Origin: a virus
DNA length: 21,243 nucleotides
Reading direction: 5' to 3' (one strand)
IMG/VR virus record: IMGVR_UViG_3300032331_000877
Coordinates: 1 to 21,243 of that record
In this document: positions 1 to 20,758 of the stretch, piece after piece
How positions within the stretch are numbered: position 1 is the first letter of the stretch
How the letters are laid out: each line of letters opens with the position of its first letter
Position numbers and translations under genes: made by a program
Notes under the pieces: model-generated
The model's database searches: none
Seen by the model: the letters and a program-made list of their open reading frames with translations, nothing else
What the model was told of the DNA's origin: nothing

Positions 1-903
1 CATTTCTCCACTTACTTCATCAAGCATAAGGTAAACACCGTCAACAAAAACAATGTCTGGTTTTGTTTGTTCAATTTTTGCTGCTAATGCAGATACGGTG
101 ATGCCATTTACAGCGTCTATTAAGTGAAAAGACGGTTCGGTTTCCATTTTATTTAAAACATCAATGTATCTACTTTCTTCTGCTGGTAAAAGTTTTCCAC
201 GTCTTAACCTGCCGTGAGAAACGTTTGCCCGCATTGCATCGTGACGTTGTTGTTGTTCATGGTTATTCATTTCAAAAGATTGAAACATTGGAATAAATCC
301 TTGAGCATGAACGTTCAAAGCCATCTTTAAAGCAATTTGAGACTTACCAGTTTTAGGTGGAGCAATTATAGTTATTAATTGACCGCCCTGTAATCCCGCA
401 GTTGCTTCATCAATTTTTGAAAAACCAGTAGGTATACCTAAAAACTCTTCATTTTGTAATGCTTGATAATCTTTATATCGTTGTTCAGTATTTTTAGTTA
501 AATCTATTTCATGTGTACCAAGGATTCCTTGCTCGTTAACCTTGGTAATAGTTGCTTCCATTGCAAGCAATGCCGCATCATGGTTGTTGTCTTGTAGTTG
601 TCCTACTGCTGTCTCTAAACCTTGACGAGTAAGAAGGCGGCGACGAAAGTCAACCATTGTGTCCAATAGATATTCAATGTTGTCTTGGACATCTAAAACT
701 TTGTAATTTGGATAATGATCTTTGACAGTAACTGCAGTAGGTACTTCGCTGTACTCTCCATAGTGTTTGCGAACAAAAGACCAAGCCTTGCGGTTATCGT
801 CATCTAAAAACCAAGATTCATTAACACCACGTTGTAGTGCTGGAACTATGTCTCGATCACGAATGACCTTGCTGACTAAACGATGTTCGTTGTCAGATGC
901 CAT
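1..903 (-). CDS. DnaB-like replicative helicase, C-terminal part missing (cut by window edge)
   Basis: This is the ring helicase that would unwind the phage replication fork. The frame is open from an ATG at 903-901 to base 1, giving 301 residues without a stop, so the 3' end lies outside the window. The first ~150 residues fit the helical N-terminal domain of DnaB. They are followed by a RecA-type ATPase core with a Walker A motif, APPKTGKS (bases about 340-365), preceded by GLQGGQLITI, and a hydrophobic Walker B strand, IVFVDG, near the window edge. The sequence LGIPTGFSKIDEATAGLQGG just before Walker A is typical of DnaB/RadA-type ATPases. The start has a good ribosome site (GAGGGGG about seven bases upstream). 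It is the last visible gene of the replication module, downstream of a DnaC-like loader. A RadA-like or other RecA-fold ATPase is less likely because of the N-terminal region. Confidence 0.85.
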   Translation of the reverse strand, partial: MASDNEHRLVSKVIRDRDIVPALQRGVNESWFLDDDNRKAWSFVRKHYGEYSEVPTAVTVKDHYPNYKVLDVQDNIEYLLDTMVDFRRRLLTRQGLETAVGQLQDNNHDAALLAMEATITKVNEQGILGTHEIDLTKNTEQRYKDYQALQNEEFLGIPTGFSKIDEATAGLQGGQLITIIAPPKTGKSQIALKMALNVHAQGFIPMFQSFEMNNHEQQQRHDAMRANVSHGRLRRGKLLPAEESRYIDVLNKMETEPSFHLIDAVNGITVSALAAKIEQTKPDIVFVDGVYLMLDEVSGEM

Positions 904-1634: not shown

Positions 1635-2357
1635 TCATTGTGCTGCTCTCAAATCTGCTCCGACTATAGGTACCCGTATGAATGCTTCCTGAGCAAAACT
1701 TGCCATTGCTTCCCTATACTCTGCTTCCCAATTTTCTAGGCGCACATTAGTGGTAACAATTGTTGGCAGAGCCTTGTCGTATCTAAGCCTAAGTATCTCA
1801 TCAAATGATGTGTCATCGTACTTTGAACCATATTCTTTTCCTAAGTCATCTATAACTAGTATTCGAACATTTAACCAATCAAACTTAGATCTGCCATGAA
1901 AGCCATCTATCTCATAGACGGCCTGCTTCTTATCCTCAAAGTCAGAATCAAAGGTTGCTTTCTTTCTAGATAAGAATTCTGGGTAAGTCATGTAGTACAC
2001 AGGCCTTGCGCCAAGACCAAAGTCAGATGCACTCATGCCCAACACCTTTGCAGCCTCTGCATCATTGTCTGGAAGATTGCGAACAAACTCCATTGCAGCA
2101 ACTACTGCGTGAGTTGTCTTACCAATTCCAGGTCCTCCATCAAATAAAAGACCAACACCATTAACTCCGATATGGCCAATTTGTTTTATGACTTGGCCAT
2201 TAACGCAGTCATCTATCCACGTAGTCACCTCGTTAGGAAAGGATCCCGCTCTGTCCACAAGGTCTTGTGGCTCAAGGCCGAGGAAGCGACGTGGGATGTT
2301 TGAGTTACGAAGTAGCCAGTGCTTCTTTAAGGCCGATAGTTGATTAATGTCATACAT
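1635..2357 (-). CDS. DnaC/IstB-like AAA+ helicase loader
   Basis: This AAA+ ATPase is of the type that loads DnaB onto single-stranded DNA. A Walker A loop (GGPGIGKTT, residues 74-82 from this start), a Walker B strand (RILVIDDLG, about 165-173) and a sensor-like TIVTTN (about 199-204) occur in the correct order. The C-terminal end, FIRVPIVGADLR, fits the final strand and arginine region of DnaC/IstB proteins. The N-terminus (LSALKKHWLLRNSNIPRRF) resembles the helical segment before the ATPase core in this family. The start at 2357 overlaps the stop of the upstream 48-codon ORF (ATGTATGA). The frame is open to ATGs at 2381 and 2393, which would add 8 or 12 residues; neither has a good ribosome site. 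Together with the phage DnaB it makes a self-supplied loader-helicase pair. The transposition protein IstB is the alternative family, but no transposase is present. Confidence 0.88.
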   Translation of the reverse strand: MYDINQLSALKKHWLLRNSNIPRRFLGLEPQDLVDRAGSFPNEVTTWIDDCVNGQVIKQIGHIGVNGVGLLFDGGPGIGKTTHAVVAAMEFVRNLPDNDAEAAKVLGMSASDFGLGARPVYYMTYPEFLSRKKATFDSDFEDKKQAVYEIDGFHGRSKFDWLNVRILVIDDLGKEYGSKYDDTSFDEILRLRYDKALPTIVTTNVRLENWEAEYREAMASFAQEAFIRVPIVGADLRAAQ

Positions 2358-2496
2358 CGTCTTCGTCAAACTCCACTTCATACATGCCGCCATAGCGCAT
2401 ACCTACGTGGTCAAACCAACTACCGATGAGTAACATTACATCGCCAAAAAATCTAAGAAACTTATTAGTCGTTGGATAAACTAATCTACTTTTCAT
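2350..2496 (-). CDS. 48-residue microprotein
   Basis: This short ORF begins with an ATG at 2496-2494 preceded by an excellent ribosome site (GGGGGGAAGT). It encodes 48 residues starting MKSRLVYPTTNKFLRFFGDV. The middle is hydrophobic (FGDVMLLIGSWFDHVG) and the C-terminus is acidic (VEFDEDDV). The hydrophobic part is short for a membrane span, so an amphipathic or peripheral helix is as likely. It overlaps the zinc-ribbon gene upstream by four bases (ATGA), and its stop overlaps the preferred loader start. I do not recognise a family. The strong ribosome site and double coupling support it as real. Confidence 0.65.
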   Translation of the reverse strand: MKSRLVYPTTNKFLRFFGDVMLLIGSWFDHVGMRYGGMYEVEFDEDDV

Positions 2497-2642: not shown

Positions 2643-2924
2643 TTAAGATTTAAAAGTTACAACGCCAACAAATAGAGTCGGCTTTCCTTTGGCGTCTCTT
2701 CCTTGACCTGCAATCATCTTCACGCTCTTGCGTGGTGTAAGTGCTTGCACTTGGCTCTTGATCCAACGCTTGCCTGCTGATGCGTTTGACCATGCAGCCA
2801 TGTTAACTACGTTAGAACCTTCGATGCCATCTGTTGTTACATTTACTATAGCCATCCATGCGCCACCTTTTTCAAGGTTCTTATTTAGATTTGCGGTAAA
2901 TGTCTTTACTACTTTTTTAGCCAT
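2643..2924 (-). CDS. Small basic protein, possible DNA-binding factor
   Basis: This 93-residue basic protein starts with MAKKVVKTFTANLNKNLEKG and is probably a beta-rich fold: a string of short strands (WMAIVNV, NVVNMAAW, KSVKMIA, TLFVGVVTF) joined by charged turns. I do not recognise a named family. A single-strand DNA-binding or initiator-accessory role is possible given its place between initiator and loader genes, but no OB-fold signature is definite. The start at 2924 is chosen because AAGGAG lies seven bases upstream; an in-frame ATG two codons earlier is only one base from that site. The 5' end overlaps the initiator gene's 3' end by eight bases. Confidence 0.8.
   Translation of the reverse strand: MAKKVVKTFTANLNKNLEKGGAWMAIVNVTTDGIEGSNVVNMAAWSNASAGKRWIKSQVQALTPRKSVKMIAGQGRDAKGKPTLFVGVVTFKS
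2738..2760. repeat. 23-base near-repeat with palindromic core, copy 1
   Basis: The core AAGTGC-TT-GCACTT lies within a 23-base stretch that recurs at 14781-14803 with one mismatch. This copy lies inside the small basic protein gene and codes QVQAL in frame. Confidence 0.5.
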
Positions 2925-3903
2925 TTGCATTCTCCTTTAGTCGTTTTTCGTATCGTGCTAGTTGTGCTCTACCAGAAAGTGAATTCTGGAAAGTGCGTCC
3001 ATCGCTTGCTTGTAACGTTCCCATCTTAACTGCTGTATCTAATGGGGCGTTAATTTTACTTAGTCCAAGATTTTCTCGGGCTTGGTTCATCTTCTTTCCA
3101 AAAGAAGCAAGGAACATCTTATACAGCATTGGGGCTTCGTCGCCAATGTTCTGGAAGTTTCGCTCATCCGCCATAAAGAGTCTGAGCAACTCTAACTCAA
3201 TTAATGCGTTGGTGTCGTATTGCTTTCTGAATTTGGCAAGGGCTCCACTAAGTTGCTTGACGCTAACTGTTCCAGGGAGTAGAGGGTACTTGCGCCCGAC
3301 ACGAAAAGAAAACTCTGCAGCGACATCCATTGGGGTCCACTCGTGCTCTGCTCGTCGTCCCCTAGTCTTAGGATCGGATTTGCGGATCTTAGGTTGCGGT
3401 GCATCCTTCGGTTCGACCAATCCAAAGCCTGCAAGATTGTCTCCATCATCTTGATATTGTCTCATAGGTACTCGTATCTCTTTCATTAGAATCCCTTTGG
3501 ATTCAGAATCTTTTAATTTATTACTATCTAGACTATTAGGTACTAATGACTTATTAGTCATACTGCTACGTGACTTATAGTCATGTGAGGTGCGGTAATT
3601 TACAGTGCGGTAATTTTCAGCATCTTTTTCTGTAGTGCGGTAATTTTCCACCACTTCATACCAGTCCATTCCTTTAAAACCATTAGCCCTCTTGCTAGGA
3701 GTTCTGATTATCAGTCCATGTTTTTCTAACGCCTTGAGTGCAGTTCTAACGGTTCGGTCCGAAGTTTTGTTAGTCTGTCTACATAACTCCTCTACAGATG
3801 TCTTAAATCGGCCCTTGGAGCCCGCTAAGTGGCAGATTACAGCCAGCAGTCGGAACTGAAAATCGGTAAGAGGAGCAGAGTAAGCCTCTAGAGGTATTTT
3901 CAA
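2917..3903 (-). CDS. Winged-helix replication initiator (lambda O / DnaD-like), TTG start
   Basis: This 328-residue protein has a winged helix-turn-helix at about residues 12-72 (LTDFQFRLLAVICHLAG, then SVEELCRQTNKTSDRTVRTA as recognition region, then a wing). That is the layout of phage replication initiators that bind origin iterons. A charged, low-complexity linker (about 85-195) follows, with the motif NYRT repeated three times at residues 87-105. A C-terminal helical domain (about 195-328) could contact the loader or helicase. The DNA coding the NYRT repeats forms iterons, so the origin probably lies inside the gene, as in lambda O. The start codon is TTG (3903-3901), overlapping the upstream stop by four bases (TTGA), and no nearer in-frame ATG keeps the winged helix. 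A transcription regulator is the main alternative, but the gene neighbourhood argues for replication. Confidence 0.8.
   Translation of the reverse strand: MKIPLEAYSAPLTDFQFRLLAVICHLAGSKGRFKTSVEELCRQTNKTSDRTVRTALKALEKHGLIIRTPSKRANGFKGMDWYEVVENYRTTEKDAENYRTVNYRTSHDYKSRSSMTNKSLVPNSLDSNKLKDSESKGILMKEIRVPMRQYQDDGDNLAGFGLVEPKDAPQPKIRKSDPKTRGRRAEHEWTPMDVAAEFSFRVGRKYPLLPGTVSVKQLSGALAKFRKQYDTNALIELELLRLFMADERNFQNIGDEAPMLYKMFLASFGKKMNQARENLGLSKINAPLDTAVKMGTLQASDGRTFQNSLSGRAQLARYEKRLKENANG
3542..3583. repeat. Paired palindromes beside the iterons
   Basis: Four half-sites of TGACT/AGTCA lie in 37 bases. ATGACT-TATT-AGTCAT (3546-3561) is a perfect six-base inverted repeat, nested with ACTAAT-GACTT-ATTAGT (3542-3558). 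TGACT-TAT-AGTCA (3571-3583) is a second copy. They sit immediately beside the iterons, with AT-rich sequence (about 3490-3545) on the other side. They may be further protein-binding sites of the origin or an operator. Confidence 0.5.
3590..3647 (-). repeat. Three iterons, candidate phage origin binding sites
   Basis: The word gtgcggtaattt (plus-strand reading) occurs at 3590-3601, 3605-3616 and 3635-3646. Starts are 15 and 30 bases apart, i.e. in steps of 15. The last two copies extend to gtgcggtaatttt. The repeats code the NYRT peptides of the initiator's linker. Evenly phased direct repeats inside the initiator gene, next to AT-rich sequence and palindromes, are typical of iteron-type phage origins. 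Binding by this initiator is inference. Confidence 0.6.
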
Positions 3904-4484
3904 AGGTTGTCATCCTTAAACGGGGAGATGTCTTTGTTCCCCTCTTCAATGTGTTTTGCTACCTCAAGAGCCAATACATCTAGGACCGTAGTCATTATGT
4001 AGTCAGCCATGTGTTCCACAAAGACAGTCATACTACTCATCATGGCATTGTACAGATCATCGGTACTGCCTTCAGAGTCGTCAAACTCCACCTTGTCTAG
4101 TCCCTCAGTTATATCCCAGACCTCAATACCAAAGTCTTCAACAGCATTAAGGATTATGTGAGCCTGGGTTGAGTTGTCCCAAACCATTCCTAGTACATCG
4201 TTGGGGGTTATTTGACGGATGATTTCTTTTACGGGGTTGTCTGTAATCACTATGTCGTCTGCAGAGATAAGTAAGTGATCTATATCCAAAGCATTGACTA
4301 TAAAGCACGTTATCTTTACTGAGTGACTCTTACACACCTCAATAACGTTTTCAACAAAGTGGTTTTCATTTCCCGTTACTGGAATAAATACAGTTAACTC
4401 ATTACTTGCGCCGTATTTATTAATGAGGGCTTCCATACCCTCATCAACACACACGTCTTCAAATGAGATTATTGCAAGATTCAT
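3900..4484 (-). CDS. Unknown alpha/beta protein, possible Rossmann/SLOG-like fold
   Basis: This 194-residue acidic protein starts MNLAIISFEDVCVDEGMEAL. Its alternating hydrophobic strands and helices (LTVFIPV, VKITCFIVN, DDIVITDNP, VLGMVWDN, FGIEVWDITEGLD) suggest a Rossmann-like sheet. The pattern of a glycine-free loop after strand 3, then DVLGMVWDNSTQAHIIL and then GIEVWDIT, loosely recalls SLOG-type nucleotide-binding proteins. That fold call is tentative. The C-terminal ~45 residues are helical (MSSMTVFVEHMADYIMTTVL). The start at 4484 is chosen because AGGAG lies four bases upstream; an open extension to 4526 has no ribosome site and runs into the upstream gene. The stop overlaps the initiator's TTG start, so it probably belongs to the replication transcript. 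Confidence 0.75.
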   Translation of the reverse strand: MNLAIISFEDVCVDEGMEALINKYGASNELTVFIPVTGNENHFVENVIEVCKSHSVKITCFIVNALDIDHLLISADDIVITDNPVKEIIRQITPNDVLGMVWDNSTQAHIILNAVEDFGIEVWDITEGLDKVEFDDSEGSTDDLYNAMMSSMTVFVEHMADYIMTTVLDVLALEVAKHIEEGNKDISPFKDDNL

Positions 4485-4491
4485 ACTTCTC

Positions 4492-4770
4492 CTATAGTTG
4501 AGATAAACGAGTAGGTGACTTAACAATTACAGGTCTATTAAGATACATCCCGATTGCTAAAGAGACAAATGTTGCTGCAGGAACCAAAACAAAGAAATCA
4601 TAATACAAATCTATTTGCGCCCAAAGACCTAAAAAACTTAATGGAAGTGCAAAGTATTTGTTTAGTGTTGGCTTAGTAATAAAGCCAGAGATAAATAAGT
4701 CTAGAAATTCAATTACGTAAGTAACTGCCATTCCTGTGAGTAGTACGGATATAACTATGTCTGTAGTCAT
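4492..4770 (-). CDS. Small multi-pass membrane protein
   Basis: This 92-residue protein is dominated by hydrophobic segments. About residues 5-28 (VISVLLTGMAVTYVIEFL) and 59-77 (FVLVPAATFVSLAIGMYL) look like clear membrane spans, and 40-57 is a weaker third. A basic tail (NRPVIVKSPTRLSQL) suggests a cytoplasmic C-terminus. Size and topology are compatible with a holin, but no endolysin lies next to it and no dual-start signature is seen, so a function cannot be assigned. ATG at 4770 is preferred (AGGA nine bases upstream) over the in-frame TTG at 4776. The stop codon is seven bases from the next gene's start and lies beside that gene's ribosome site. Confidence 0.75.
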   Translation of the reverse strand: MTTDIVISVLLTGMAVTYVIEFLDLFISGFITKPTLNKYFALPLSFLGLWAQIDLYYDFFVLVPAATFVSLAIGMYLNRPVIVKSPTRLSQL

Positions 4771-19181: not shown

Positions 19182-19433
19182 TTACTTCTTTTTAGACTTT
19201 GCTTCTCGCTTGTCTTCAGCCTTCTCGCCCTTTTTACCTTCTTTGGCTTCGTGCTTCTTAGACATAGCCTTAATCTTTTTTACATTAGCAACATCCATCT
19301 TGCGGTCATCCTCTTGGGATTTAGGCTTGCGATGTTTCTTATCCATCTTTTCAAACTTGGCCTTCTCTTCTTTATCCAATCCCTTTGTGGTCTTGGCATC
19401 CTGCTTCTTGTCAGAGGCCTTGGTGTACTTCAT
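19182..19433 (-). CDS. Highly charged Lys-rich small protein
   Basis: This 83-residue protein is about 35% lysine (29 of 83), with Glu/Asp spread between, and nearly no hydrophobic core. It is probably disordered or a single long charged helix. The end is KREAKSKKK. No family is recognised. Its ATG overlaps the upstream stop by one base (TAATG), and its stop is followed at once by the terminator, making it the last member of the cassette. Confidence 0.7.
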   Translation of the reverse strand: MKYTKASDKKQDAKTTKGLDKEEKAKFEKMDKKHRKPKSQEDDRKMDVANVKKIKAMSKKHEAKEGKKGEKAEDKREAKSKKK

Positions 19434-19549
19434 TAAACTACTTTTTTCTTCTTCTTTTTAAGCGCCTTGAAATCTGCGCCAGTAATTTTGTCGACAGGCT
19501 TTGCAGCACCAGCGATCTTCTTCTGCTTAGGGGTTAATGACTTCTTCAT
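19433..19549 (-). CDS. 38-residue poly-lysine microprotein
   Basis: This short ORF encodes MKKSLTPKQKKIAGAAKPVD then KITGADFKALKKKKKKVV. Fourteen of 38 residues are lysine, including six in a row. The pattern LTPKQKKIA..P.DKITGADFKAL is one I know from other phage genomes as a small protein without assigned function. It is coupled on both sides by one-base TAATG overlaps. Confidence 0.65.
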   Translation of the reverse strand: MKKSLTPKQKKIAGAAKPVDKITGADFKALKKKKKKVV

Positions 19550-19641
19550 TACTTCTTACCACCTGAGCAAGTGGAACACTTGCACTTACAGCCCTTGACC
19601 TTCTTGGTCTTGGTGCACTTACAGCCACATGATTTGCACAT
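19549..19641 (-). CDS. 30-residue cysteine-rich, metallothionein-like microprotein
   Basis: This short ORF has eight cysteines in 30 residues. They are at 2, 5, 7, 9, 18, 20, 22 and 25, giving CxxCxCxC-x8-CxCxCxxC, a mirror-symmetric spacing. Lysines fill most of the gaps. The density of CxC pairs suggests a metal-binding cluster peptide; a disulfide-bonded peptide is unlikely in a reducing cytoplasm. It is coupled downstream by a one-base overlap, with AAAGG nine bases before the ATG. Function in the phage is unknown. Confidence 0.65.
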   Translation of the reverse strand: MCKSCGCKCTKTKKVKGCKCKCSTCSGGKK

Positions 19642-19643
19642 AT

Positions 19644-19814
19644 CTATTTACCTTTCTTCTTGGCTTTTTTAGCCACTGCGGCATTATCCACGAGGTTGGG
19701 ATAAGGACGTCCTGCTGCCTTGGCTCTCGCCTTAGCCGCAGACTTCTGAGATGAGGATAACTTCTTATCCTTGCCTGATGGGTCTTTAGTGTCCCAAAAC
19801 TTTTTAGCAGCCAC
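19644..19814 (-). CDS. Small conserved phage protein (AGRPYPNLVDN motif), GTG start
   Basis: This 56-residue basic protein starts with GTG (19814-19812), nine bases after AAGGG. Its central motif AGRPYPNLVDNAAVAKK is one that recurs in small proteins of other phages, next to similar Lys-rich genes. The N-terminal half (KKFWDTKDPSGKDKKLSSSQ) is charged and the C-terminus is KKAKKKGK. The stop is two bases before the Cys-rich ORF. It overlaps the previous gene's 3' end by 11 bases. Role unknown. Confidence 0.7.
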   Translation of the reverse strand: MAAKKFWDTKDPSGKDKKLSSSQKSAAKARAKAAGRPYPNLVDNAAVAKKAKKKGK

Positions 19815-20064
19815 AGTCCCACGCCCTTAATGACTTGTTGATACGGCTATCTGGATCACGAGCAGTTTTGGCTGAAGTGTTCTTTGCCTTCATACCCTTC
19901 ATTCTTTTACAAAATGCTTTATGTCTTTTGTTCTTAGGGTCTTTACTTGGCGCCTTTAAATCTGATCCTGGGTTAGCCTTTTCGTAAGACTTGCGGCCCT
20001 TTTCATTAAGGCCACCTTTTTGATTCTTACCTTCTTTGCGTTGCCATGCTGCTGTCTTTGCCAT
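19804..20064 (-). CDS. DUF6321-like small protein
   Basis: This 86-residue protein carries a pattern I recognise from phage proteins of the DUF6321 type: AAWQRKEGKNQKGGLNEKGR, then SYEKANPGSDLKAP, FCKRMKGMKAK, and SAKTARDPDSRINKSLRAWD ending in CGC. Three cysteines are present. Its biochemical role is unknown. The ATG overlaps the upstream TAA by one base, so it is in the coupled chain. Confidence 0.78.
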   Translation of the reverse strand: MAKTAAWQRKEGKNQKGGLNEKGRKSYEKANPGSDLKAPSKDPKNKRHKAFCKRMKGMKAKNTSAKTARDPDSRINKSLRAWDCGC

Positions 20065-20315
20065 TAGCGTCCCTGACTTCTATGAGGATTGTTCTTGTGC
20101 CAACTCTTTACAGCCTTGACACCTTGCTTAACAGTCTTTGATCCGCCCATTTTTGTAAGGTTAATTTTATCCCATTTACCTTGATTGCTATTGGTGTGCT
20201 CAACAACAATATCGCCCTTTTTATTTTTAGAAACTTTATGAATTACCTTGGCTTTCTTCTTAGGAACACCAATAGCCAGAGTTACTGGTTTTTCTGCTTT
20301 CTTTTTATCTGCCAT
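20064..20315 (-). CDS. Lys-rich small protein, unknown
   Basis: This 83-residue basic protein starts MADKKKAEKPVTLAIGVPKK. A likely beta-hairpin core (AKVIHKV, GDIVVEHTN, KWDKINLTK) is followed by a basic helix (SKTVKQGVKAVKSWHKNN). It could contact nucleic acid, but no family is recognised. Start and stop both overlap neighbours by one base. Confidence 0.7.
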   Translation of the reverse strand: MADKKKAEKPVTLAIGVPKKKAKVIHKVSKNKKGDIVVEHTNSNQGKWDKINLTKMGGSKTVKQGVKAVKSWHKNNPHRSQGR

Positions 20316-20497
20316 CAGGTCACCGATTTCTTATGTTTATAACGGATTGGGGCTTTAGGTTTTCTTACCGTTCCACCCTTTTTCCTCTTTAATTTTGCGC
20401 CACCAGACTCATACTTACTCTCAGTAATATTAGTTTGAATGTTCTTTTGGGGTTGCTTACCAGCCCGTGCTCCAATTGATGAACGGCGTTTGTTCAT
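20315..20497 (-). CDS. Lys/Arg-rich small protein, unknown
   Basis: This 60-residue protein is strongly basic (MNKRRSSIGARAGKQPQKNI to KAPIRYKHKKSVT) and probably disordered. No family or motif is recognised. It is coupled by one-base overlaps at both ends (TAATG upstream, TGATG downstream). Confidence 0.65.
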   Translation of the reverse strand: MNKRRSSIGARAGKQPQKNIQTNITESKYESGGAKLKRKKGGTVRKPKAPIRYKHKKSVT

Positions 20498-20673
20498 TAC
20501 TTCTTCTTTGACTTCTTTGACATACCCGCTTCACTCATTGCAATTGCAACCGCCTGCTTCTTTGATTTAACAACTGGTCCTTTACCAGGACCCTTCTTAC
20601 CTGAGTGCAACTTTCCTTCTTTGTACTCTTTCATAACTTTTTCAACTTTTCCTTTTGATCTTTTAGTTGCCAT
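20497..20673 (-). CDS. DUF6496-like small basic protein
   Basis: This 58-residue protein matches a pattern I know as DUF6496: VMKEYKEGKLHSGKKGPGKG, then PVVKSKKQAVAIAMSEAGMS and a KKSKKK end. The function of the family is unknown, and it is frequent in phages and in some bacteria. Three ATGs stand in a row (20679, 20676, 20673); the last is chosen because AGAGG lies six bases upstream. Confidence 0.78.
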   Translation of the reverse strand: MATKRSKGKVEKVMKEYKEGKLHSGKKGPGKGPVVKSKKQAVAIAMSEAGMSKKSKKK

Positions 20674-20758
20674 CATCATCCTCTTCTACTTGGTCATCTA
20701 ATTCTACCGCATCAAACTCAAAGAGAGAGGGGTCTAATAACTCCTCAAAATTTCCCAT
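20663..20758 (-). CDS. 31-residue acidic microprotein
   Basis: This short ORF from ATG 20758-20756 encodes MGNFEELLDPSLFEFDAVEL then DDQVEEDDDGN, which is strongly acidic and the reverse of its basic neighbours. It begins three bases after the connector gene's stop and overlaps the DUF6496-like start by 11 bases. No strong ribosome site is visible. It could be real through coupling; its composition suggests a partner or mask for a basic protein, which is speculation. Confidence 0.5.
   Translation of the reverse strand: MGNFEELLDPSLFEFDAVELDDQVEEDDDGN

Follow-up and report, generated by a model that had tools for sequence, protein, structure and literature searches.

In this report, we propose that the replication origin of a phage lies inside the linker-coding part of its own initiator gene, at positions 3489-3648 of the window (the whole stretch of DNA analysed, an IMG/VR virus fragment of 21,243 bases), and we put the probability of this reading, drawn from comparative sequence analysis, at about 0.9. 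A sequence-only reading had already suggested a candidate origin within this gene, and comparison among relatives now supports it through constraint acting on the DNA itself, a repeat class that follows the winged helix of the initiator, and an AT-rich block with an adjoining hairpin. The interval first suggested, 3542-3647, has to be widened, as the conserved element reaches past 3542 to about 3489. Besides tail genes, the fragment carries a minus-strand replication block, in which the initiator, loader and DnaB-type helicase genes follow in this order with three small genes interspersed:

2917-3903, minus strand: initiator gene, 328 amino acids, TTG start in this frame; winged helix, probably disordered linker, C-terminal domain
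1635-2393, minus strand: DnaC-like helicase loader gene, downstream of the initiator (phrog_50, E 8.5e-22)
1-903, minus strand: DnaB-like replicative helicase gene, cut by the window end (DnaB_C, E 3.1e-19)

The loader, which Pfam and PHROG describe as DnaC-like or IstB-like, is found downstream of the initiator in 89 of the 90 relative loci with room for it, and the DnaB-like helicase gene is kept in 49 of 49. The genes on either side of the initiator (2643-2930 and 3900-4526), for which Pfam and PHROG gave no match up to E 0.1, are retained in 112 of the 115 loci with room for the first and in all 116 with room for the second, and are conserved unknown proteins of the replication region. Between the loader and helicase genes, 1330-1638 encodes a small protein, possibly containing a SWIM zinc finger (PF04434, E 0.018, below the cut-off) and kept in 74 of 74 loci with room, and close to the end of the window (19182-20679) there is a series of very short lysine-rich open reading frames.

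The initiator itself falls into two domains on either side of the linker:

3676-3891, minus strand: winged-helix coding part, codons 5-76; a predicted helix at 49-61 includes residue 54, which tracks the iteron class
2917-3480, minus strand: C-terminal domain coding part, which does not track the iterons

The N-terminal winged helix is assigned to HTH_36 (pfam13730; E 5.3e-7, above the curated cut-off), and the PHROG matches of the protein include the replication initiation protein phrog_270 (E 3.7e-12) and the O-like phrog_678 (E 2e-7). A structure model built from 38 sequences is confident for residues 1-84 and falls below pLDDT 50 for residues 87-193 (mean 57.9 overall); this low-confidence stretch, which the model suggests is probably disordered, includes the part coded by the proposed origin. 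The C-terminal part is modelled as helical and poorly, so that the usable portion is the winged helix; searches with the C-terminal part up to E 0.1 matched neither a Pfam family nor a PDB sequence. The model had no fold match at E 0.001 or better; its best matches, weak at E 0.007 and above, include an initiator and a DnaD N-terminal domain, and among the weak ones 4pql and 4pt7 are listed as the N-terminal domain of a DNA-binding protein and as an initiator, both of which we take to be plasmid RepA proteins.

Within the linker-coding part, the window contains three iterons and two palindromes:

3634-3648, minus strand: iteron 1, GAAAATTACCGCACT, class A, the class of 48 of 123 relatives
3604-3618, minus strand: iteron 2, GAAAATTACCGCACT
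3589-3603, minus strand: iteron 3, GTAAATTACCGCACC, merging into the conserved block
3571-3583, no strand: palindrome TGACTTATAGTCA, in the same form in 19 of 64 distinct segments
3547-3560, no strand: palindrome TGACTTATTAGTCA, retained in only part of the relatives

Exact copies of GTGCGGTAATT (minus strand AATTACCGCAC) lie at 3590-3600, 3605-3615 and 3635-3645, and a search of the whole record for AATTACCGCACY within one mismatch returned just these three iterons, which by inspection are not inverted repeats. Their imprint on the protein, a peptide NYRT occurring three times in the initiator of this record, was confirmed. The sequence-only reading had described three iterons in steps of 15; the three copies stand, but the steps along the minus strand are 30 and then 15. 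Its further argument, that a uniform 15-base phase would place successive sites on opposite faces of the helix, does not survive comparison: among 55 distinct segments with at least two ATTACC sites, spacings of 15 (29), 30 (22), 33 (17), 24 (7) and 21 (5) occur, together with 42, 17 and 16, and therefore no single helical phase is kept. Both TGACT palindromes were found in the window, but the exact form TGACT..AGTCA is present in just 22 of 64 distinct segments, and we rejected these palindromes as a general element. When the linker was recoded synonymously 20,000 times with the peptide held fixed, 102 recodings gave three identical 11-mers; thus, the window alone offers only modest evidence, and the case rests on relatives.

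We scanned IMG/VR for relatives of the initiator in six scans with single proteins and one with an alignment (A1), and obtained 321 sequences (320 loci and the window) that reduce to 130 distinct coding sequences, 128 of them longer than 800 bases. The codon alignment holds 126 of these, a sequence with an insert (L162, described below) and one row removed by a filter on unreadable codons having been omitted; comparisons of winged-helix and iteron classes, trees and residue 54 used 123 of the 126, with three partial rows dropped. In a sample of 37 aligned relatives, identity to the window's initiator is 66-93%. A tblastn search of the cultured-phage collection at 1e-5 found no relative of the initiator, and none was confirmed in bacterial (species) genomes.

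Across the 126 initiators, the linker stands apart from both domains that it joins. The AT-rich part of it and its conserved pieces are as follows:

3505-3600, minus strand: block constrained at the DNA level, codons 102-133; same-residue codon differences 0.055 in the alignment of relatives
3533-3548, minus strand: near-invariant core CATTAGTACCTAATAG, from the alignment of relatives
3508-3519, minus strand: conserved AAATTAAAAGAT, adjoining the hairpin

In codons 102-133, which also include a near-invariant AAATTAAAAGA, residues differ at 0.341 per pair and the codons of shared residues at 0.055, compared with 0.385 and 0.42 in the winged helix and 0.182 and 0.498 in the C-terminal domain; because residues vary more than codons here, the amino acid sequence drifts but the DNA sequence is maintained. 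Over most of the gene, silent diversity amounts to 0.3-0.6; it drops to 0.015-0.14 in 12-codon windows across codons 97-140 (3484-3615), at least two of which reach a family-wise p of 0.001 by permutation within amino acids. The impression that the linker is free to vary thus applies to its amino acids but not to its DNA. An alternative origin of such low codon diversity is recent homogenising recombination with no DNA-level selection, an idea to which the AT block, as the likely crossover zone of cassette swaps, lends some plausibility; homogenisation would lower residue and silent differences alike, however, whereas the block combines high residue differences (0.341) with low silent ones (0.055), a ratio of 6.2, and the adjoining hairpin changes both arms together across 17 stems. 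We therefore disfavour homogenisation and regard it as extremely unlikely.

It could also be argued that the NYRT motif is kept in the linker for the function of the protein and that the DNA repeat is its by-product, since 137 copies of the peptide occur in 71 of the 126 sequences. In all 137, the coding DNA is AATTACCGCA with CT or CC after it; from codon usage in the rest of the gene, such coding is expected at about 1.9% per copy, odds that cannot simply be multiplied since the copies are related. A peptide kept while synonymous changes break the DNA repeat was the pattern named beforehand as counting against an origin, and it was sought and found in none of the 137; one DYRT copy, in L012, has a synonymous change. 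In L055 and L061, the repeats follow one another at 17 and 16 bases, and the middle copy of the three falls in a different reading frame, so that the DNA repeat is retained though the peptide repeat is lost. The motif is wholly replaced in other types, and the linker is predicted to be disordered. Selection for the peptide has, on these grounds, next to no chance of being the explanation, and constraint on the DNA is the reading that we carry forward.

Types without NYRT have other repeats at the same place. L223 and others carry GGTAA-N4-TTACC (type G), L057 and L083 carry two copies of CCAGACTGTCACC, L171 and L173-L177 two copies of GTCCACCC, and GGAC half-sites occur in several layouts. In a test of exact 7-mer repeats, 49 of 55 AATTACC segments, 2 of 2 CAGACTGTC segments and 2 of 5 GTCCACCC segments passed; the GGAC-type repeats are degenerate, with only 8 of 33 distinct segments beating synonymous recoding at p 0.05.

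The sequence-only reading had asked whether the linker repeat moves with the type of winged helix, and it does. The partial correlation between iteron and winged-helix distances, with the C-terminal domain held constant, is 0.62 (0 of 500 permutations as high), compared with 0.015 between iteron and C-terminal distances with the winged helix held constant. The seven repeat classes, which need at least 6 changes, take 7 on the tree of winged helices and 16 on that of C-terminal domains (both quick trees, with no support values shown); some linkage of class and winged helix is expected because the class labels were drawn from adjoining DNA, and it is the conflict with the C-terminal tree that is informative. 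Since iteron class follows the winged helix and not the C-terminal domain, we conclude that winged helix and iterons are exchanged as a cassette. Counting against the reading proposed here, as do the degenerate GGAC-type repeats, AATTACC-type winged helices are up to 56% different, with a core common to all. A single exchange can be seen in L118 and L055, whose C-terminal domains differ by 9.4% of nucleotides and AT blocks by 2%, as against 33% of amino acids in the winged helix and different iterons; identity is as low as 23-28% over the iterons and recovers to 90-100% once the AT block is reached. Judged from these sequences, the pair is a swap of winged helix and iterons, and the AT block is likely to be the crossover zone for such swaps.

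Within the winged helix, the stretch at 3736-3768 (codons 46-56) contains residue 54, which separates the AATTACC type from all other repeat types: within the AATTACC type, 71 of 71 sequences have S, T, N or A at this position, and each of the 52 others has R, an association that may reflect few independent events. This residue of the predicted recognition helix is a candidate specificity residue. The sequence set aside from the codon alignment, L162, encodes at 3001-4272 of its own record an initiator of 424 residues with an in-frame HNH endonuclease domain (PF01844, E 6.5e-7) in the linker. The insert, at roughly 3290-3530, has the winged helix on one side and the conserved AT block on the other, and adjoins another inverted repeat, ATTTTGTCC / GGACAAAAT; it may reflect the entry of a mobile endonuclease into the origin, or an initiator that cuts its own origin.

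The conserved block is also physically distinctive. Positions 3508-3567 are 75% AT, and 3507-3547 is among the least stable 0.05% of 40-base windows. AT-rich flanks had been predicted for the repeats; a tract of this kind is present, but on one side only. The core CATTAGTACCTAATAG, searched within 2 mismatches, matches exactly once per record in 10 of 10 relative records of 65-100 kb. The block 3505-3600 is likely the unwinding element. DnaA boxes, within one mismatch, occur near the element in 17 of 126 sequences, and were rejected as a general part of it on that count.

Directly after the AT block, and overlooked by the sequence-only reading, lies a third feature:

3489-3504, minus strand: hairpin GAATCC-AAAG-GGATTC, structure kept while its sequence changes

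Every one of the 55 distinct segments has a hairpin; the stems are perfect over 6-10 pairs, and 17 different ones occur. The mean best stem is 7.2, compared with 4.0 (sd 0.12) under synonymous recoding, and the arms pair at 99% in register as against 15-44% when slid. Most loops are of three bases, with the sequences GAA (18), AAA (9), GTA (4) and GGA (1), so that 23 of the 55 have GNA loops on the coding strand, and loops of this kind are especially stable in single-stranded DNA. Because the stem differs within one iteron class, the hairpin is unlike a further site for the same winged helix.

On the plus strand, the hairpin at 3489-3504 is followed by AGAATCTTTTAATTTATT, and together they pass a terminator-like scan; with TTTTAATTT conserved among relatives, hairpin and T-rich flank might be an antisense transcription terminator or a primer-RNA signal and no DNA element of an origin. 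We consider this unlikely, though with an appreciable chance of being correct: one such site was found where 1.4 are expected by chance, the T-run begins six bases past the stem, nearby genes of annotated type are on the minus strand, and the GNA loops (23 of 55) are on the coding strand. As an observation in its own right, 3489-3519 on the plus strand, with the hairpin and then TCTTTTAATTTATT, resembles a weak antisense terminator, and its conservation could serve that role. We tentatively suggest, at rather less than even odds, that the hairpin is a third working element of initiator-embedded origins, kept purely as structure and with a counterpart in lambda; it would form once melting exposes the strand, and would govern the placement of helicase or primase. 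If this is true, such origins would be read as sequence in the iterons, as instability in the AT block and as shape in the hairpin.

The extent of the element also bears on whether the repeats are simply operators through which the winged-helix protein regulates its own gene, in a region that is not an origin. Winged-helix domains are common in repressors, and some initiators do autoregulate. The sites are, however, some 250 bases into the gene, with no promoter-like site found near the iterons; the constraint extends through the unstable AT-rich block and the hairpin, and loader and helicase genes follow. Autoregulation as the sole role of the repeats is accordingly very unlikely, and an origin accounts for the element as a whole with the probability given at the outset. 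The genome may hold another origin elsewhere, since the 21,243-base record is a fragment. In three long relative records (99,750, 99,864 and 86,892 bases), the minimum of GC skew is near the gene in one (36,000 vs 36,621), and we treat skew as uninformative because the coding strand probably dominates it.

Our data suggest a model in which the winged helix, by analogy with its families, would bind the iterons, and the bound array would strain and melt the AT-rich block. The C-terminal domain would then recruit the DnaC-like loader, which would put the DnaB-like helicase on the opened strand, and the hairpin might either bound the opening or fold on the strand so exposed, thereby positioning helicase or primase. 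Because the reader and its site adjoin each other, winged helix and iterons would be swapped as a matched cassette by recombination in the conserved AT block.

Together, these results place an inferred origin, almost to the base, in a phage group for which the cultured-phage collection searched gave no match, and they indicate that metagenome data alone can suffice to locate an origin through codon constraint in the initiator gene. The 126 natural variants, with seven repeat classes, cassette swaps and a residue 54 that splits two classes from the rest, are a ready-made set on the joint change of a winged helix and its DNA site. In addition, a hairpin conserved in shape and not in sequence raises the question of the role played by its counterpart in lambda.

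An origin embedded in the initiator gene is a known design, represented by lambda O, SPP1 gene 38 and pSK41 rep; within the collections searched (open-licence papers only, for the literature), the novelty lies in the phage group and the protein family, in the sequences of the repeats, in how large the natural swap series is and in a hairpin that covaries. The earlier suggestion of a lambda-like layout with different sequences holds, here for a large group of uncultured phages that is unrelated to lambda. The lambda origin likewise lies in gene O, with iterons between the parts coding for the DNA-binding and C-terminal domains, an AT tract on the C-terminal side and then a hairpin; its four iterons are at steps of 20, 24 and 23. 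The lambda hairpin, GTCAGAGAATTC-TGGC-GAATCCTCTGAC, has 12-base arms with 92% pairing, and 0 of 300 recodings were as good. Over 15 O genes, the mean hairpin score is 6.1 compared with 4.5 by recoding, and because p is below 0.05 in four of the 15 (lambda, Edno5, mEp043 and P22) and not in the other 11, the hairpin is present yet not universal among O genes; in P22, the stem may belong to the iterons. A comparison of lambdoid origins in 1979 reportedly noted inverted repeats. In two published accounts, the lambda initiator binds the iterons and the loader gene follows (PMC7466680; PMC6022878). The differences are equally clear: the four lambda iterons are 18 bases long and each an inverted repeat, whereas those in the window number three, are about 14 bases long and are not inverted; the match between lambda O and the window initiator is limited to 20 residues (E 0.017), and the latter had no Phage_rep_O family hit among Pfam up to E 0.1; and the lambda loader is P-like, whereas the one here is DnaC-like, and a DnaB-like helicase is encoded by the phage itself.

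SPP1 oriL within gene 38, as described, shares the plan, and genes 38, 39 and 40 have the same order of initiator, loader and DnaB-type helicase; SPP1 differs in having a second origin, oriR. Origins inside initiator genes are also described in reports on repC of repABC plasmids (PMC3155836) and on P1 oriL in repL (PMC9948254), where function is lost or reduced when an AT-rich stretch is altered silently. The repC origin is described as being without iterons, and the repC and repL protein families differ from that of the window initiator. A further parallel comes from the staphylococcal plasmid genes pSK41 rep and pPR9 rep, whose origin, according to one report, lies mid-gene and encodes the linker between a winged-helix N-terminal domain and a C-terminal domain (PMC5703833). 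These are plasmids and not phages, and their C-terminal domain is described there as binding host primase; by sequence, no known domain was found in the C-terminal part of the window initiator. In pPR9, by the same account, the N-terminal domain (pfam13730) and the origin have been swapped together on a nearly identical C-terminal domain (PMC5703833), so that pPR9 rep shares with the window initiator and its relatives both the N-terminal Pfam family, HTH_36, and the same kind of domain-plus-origin swap.
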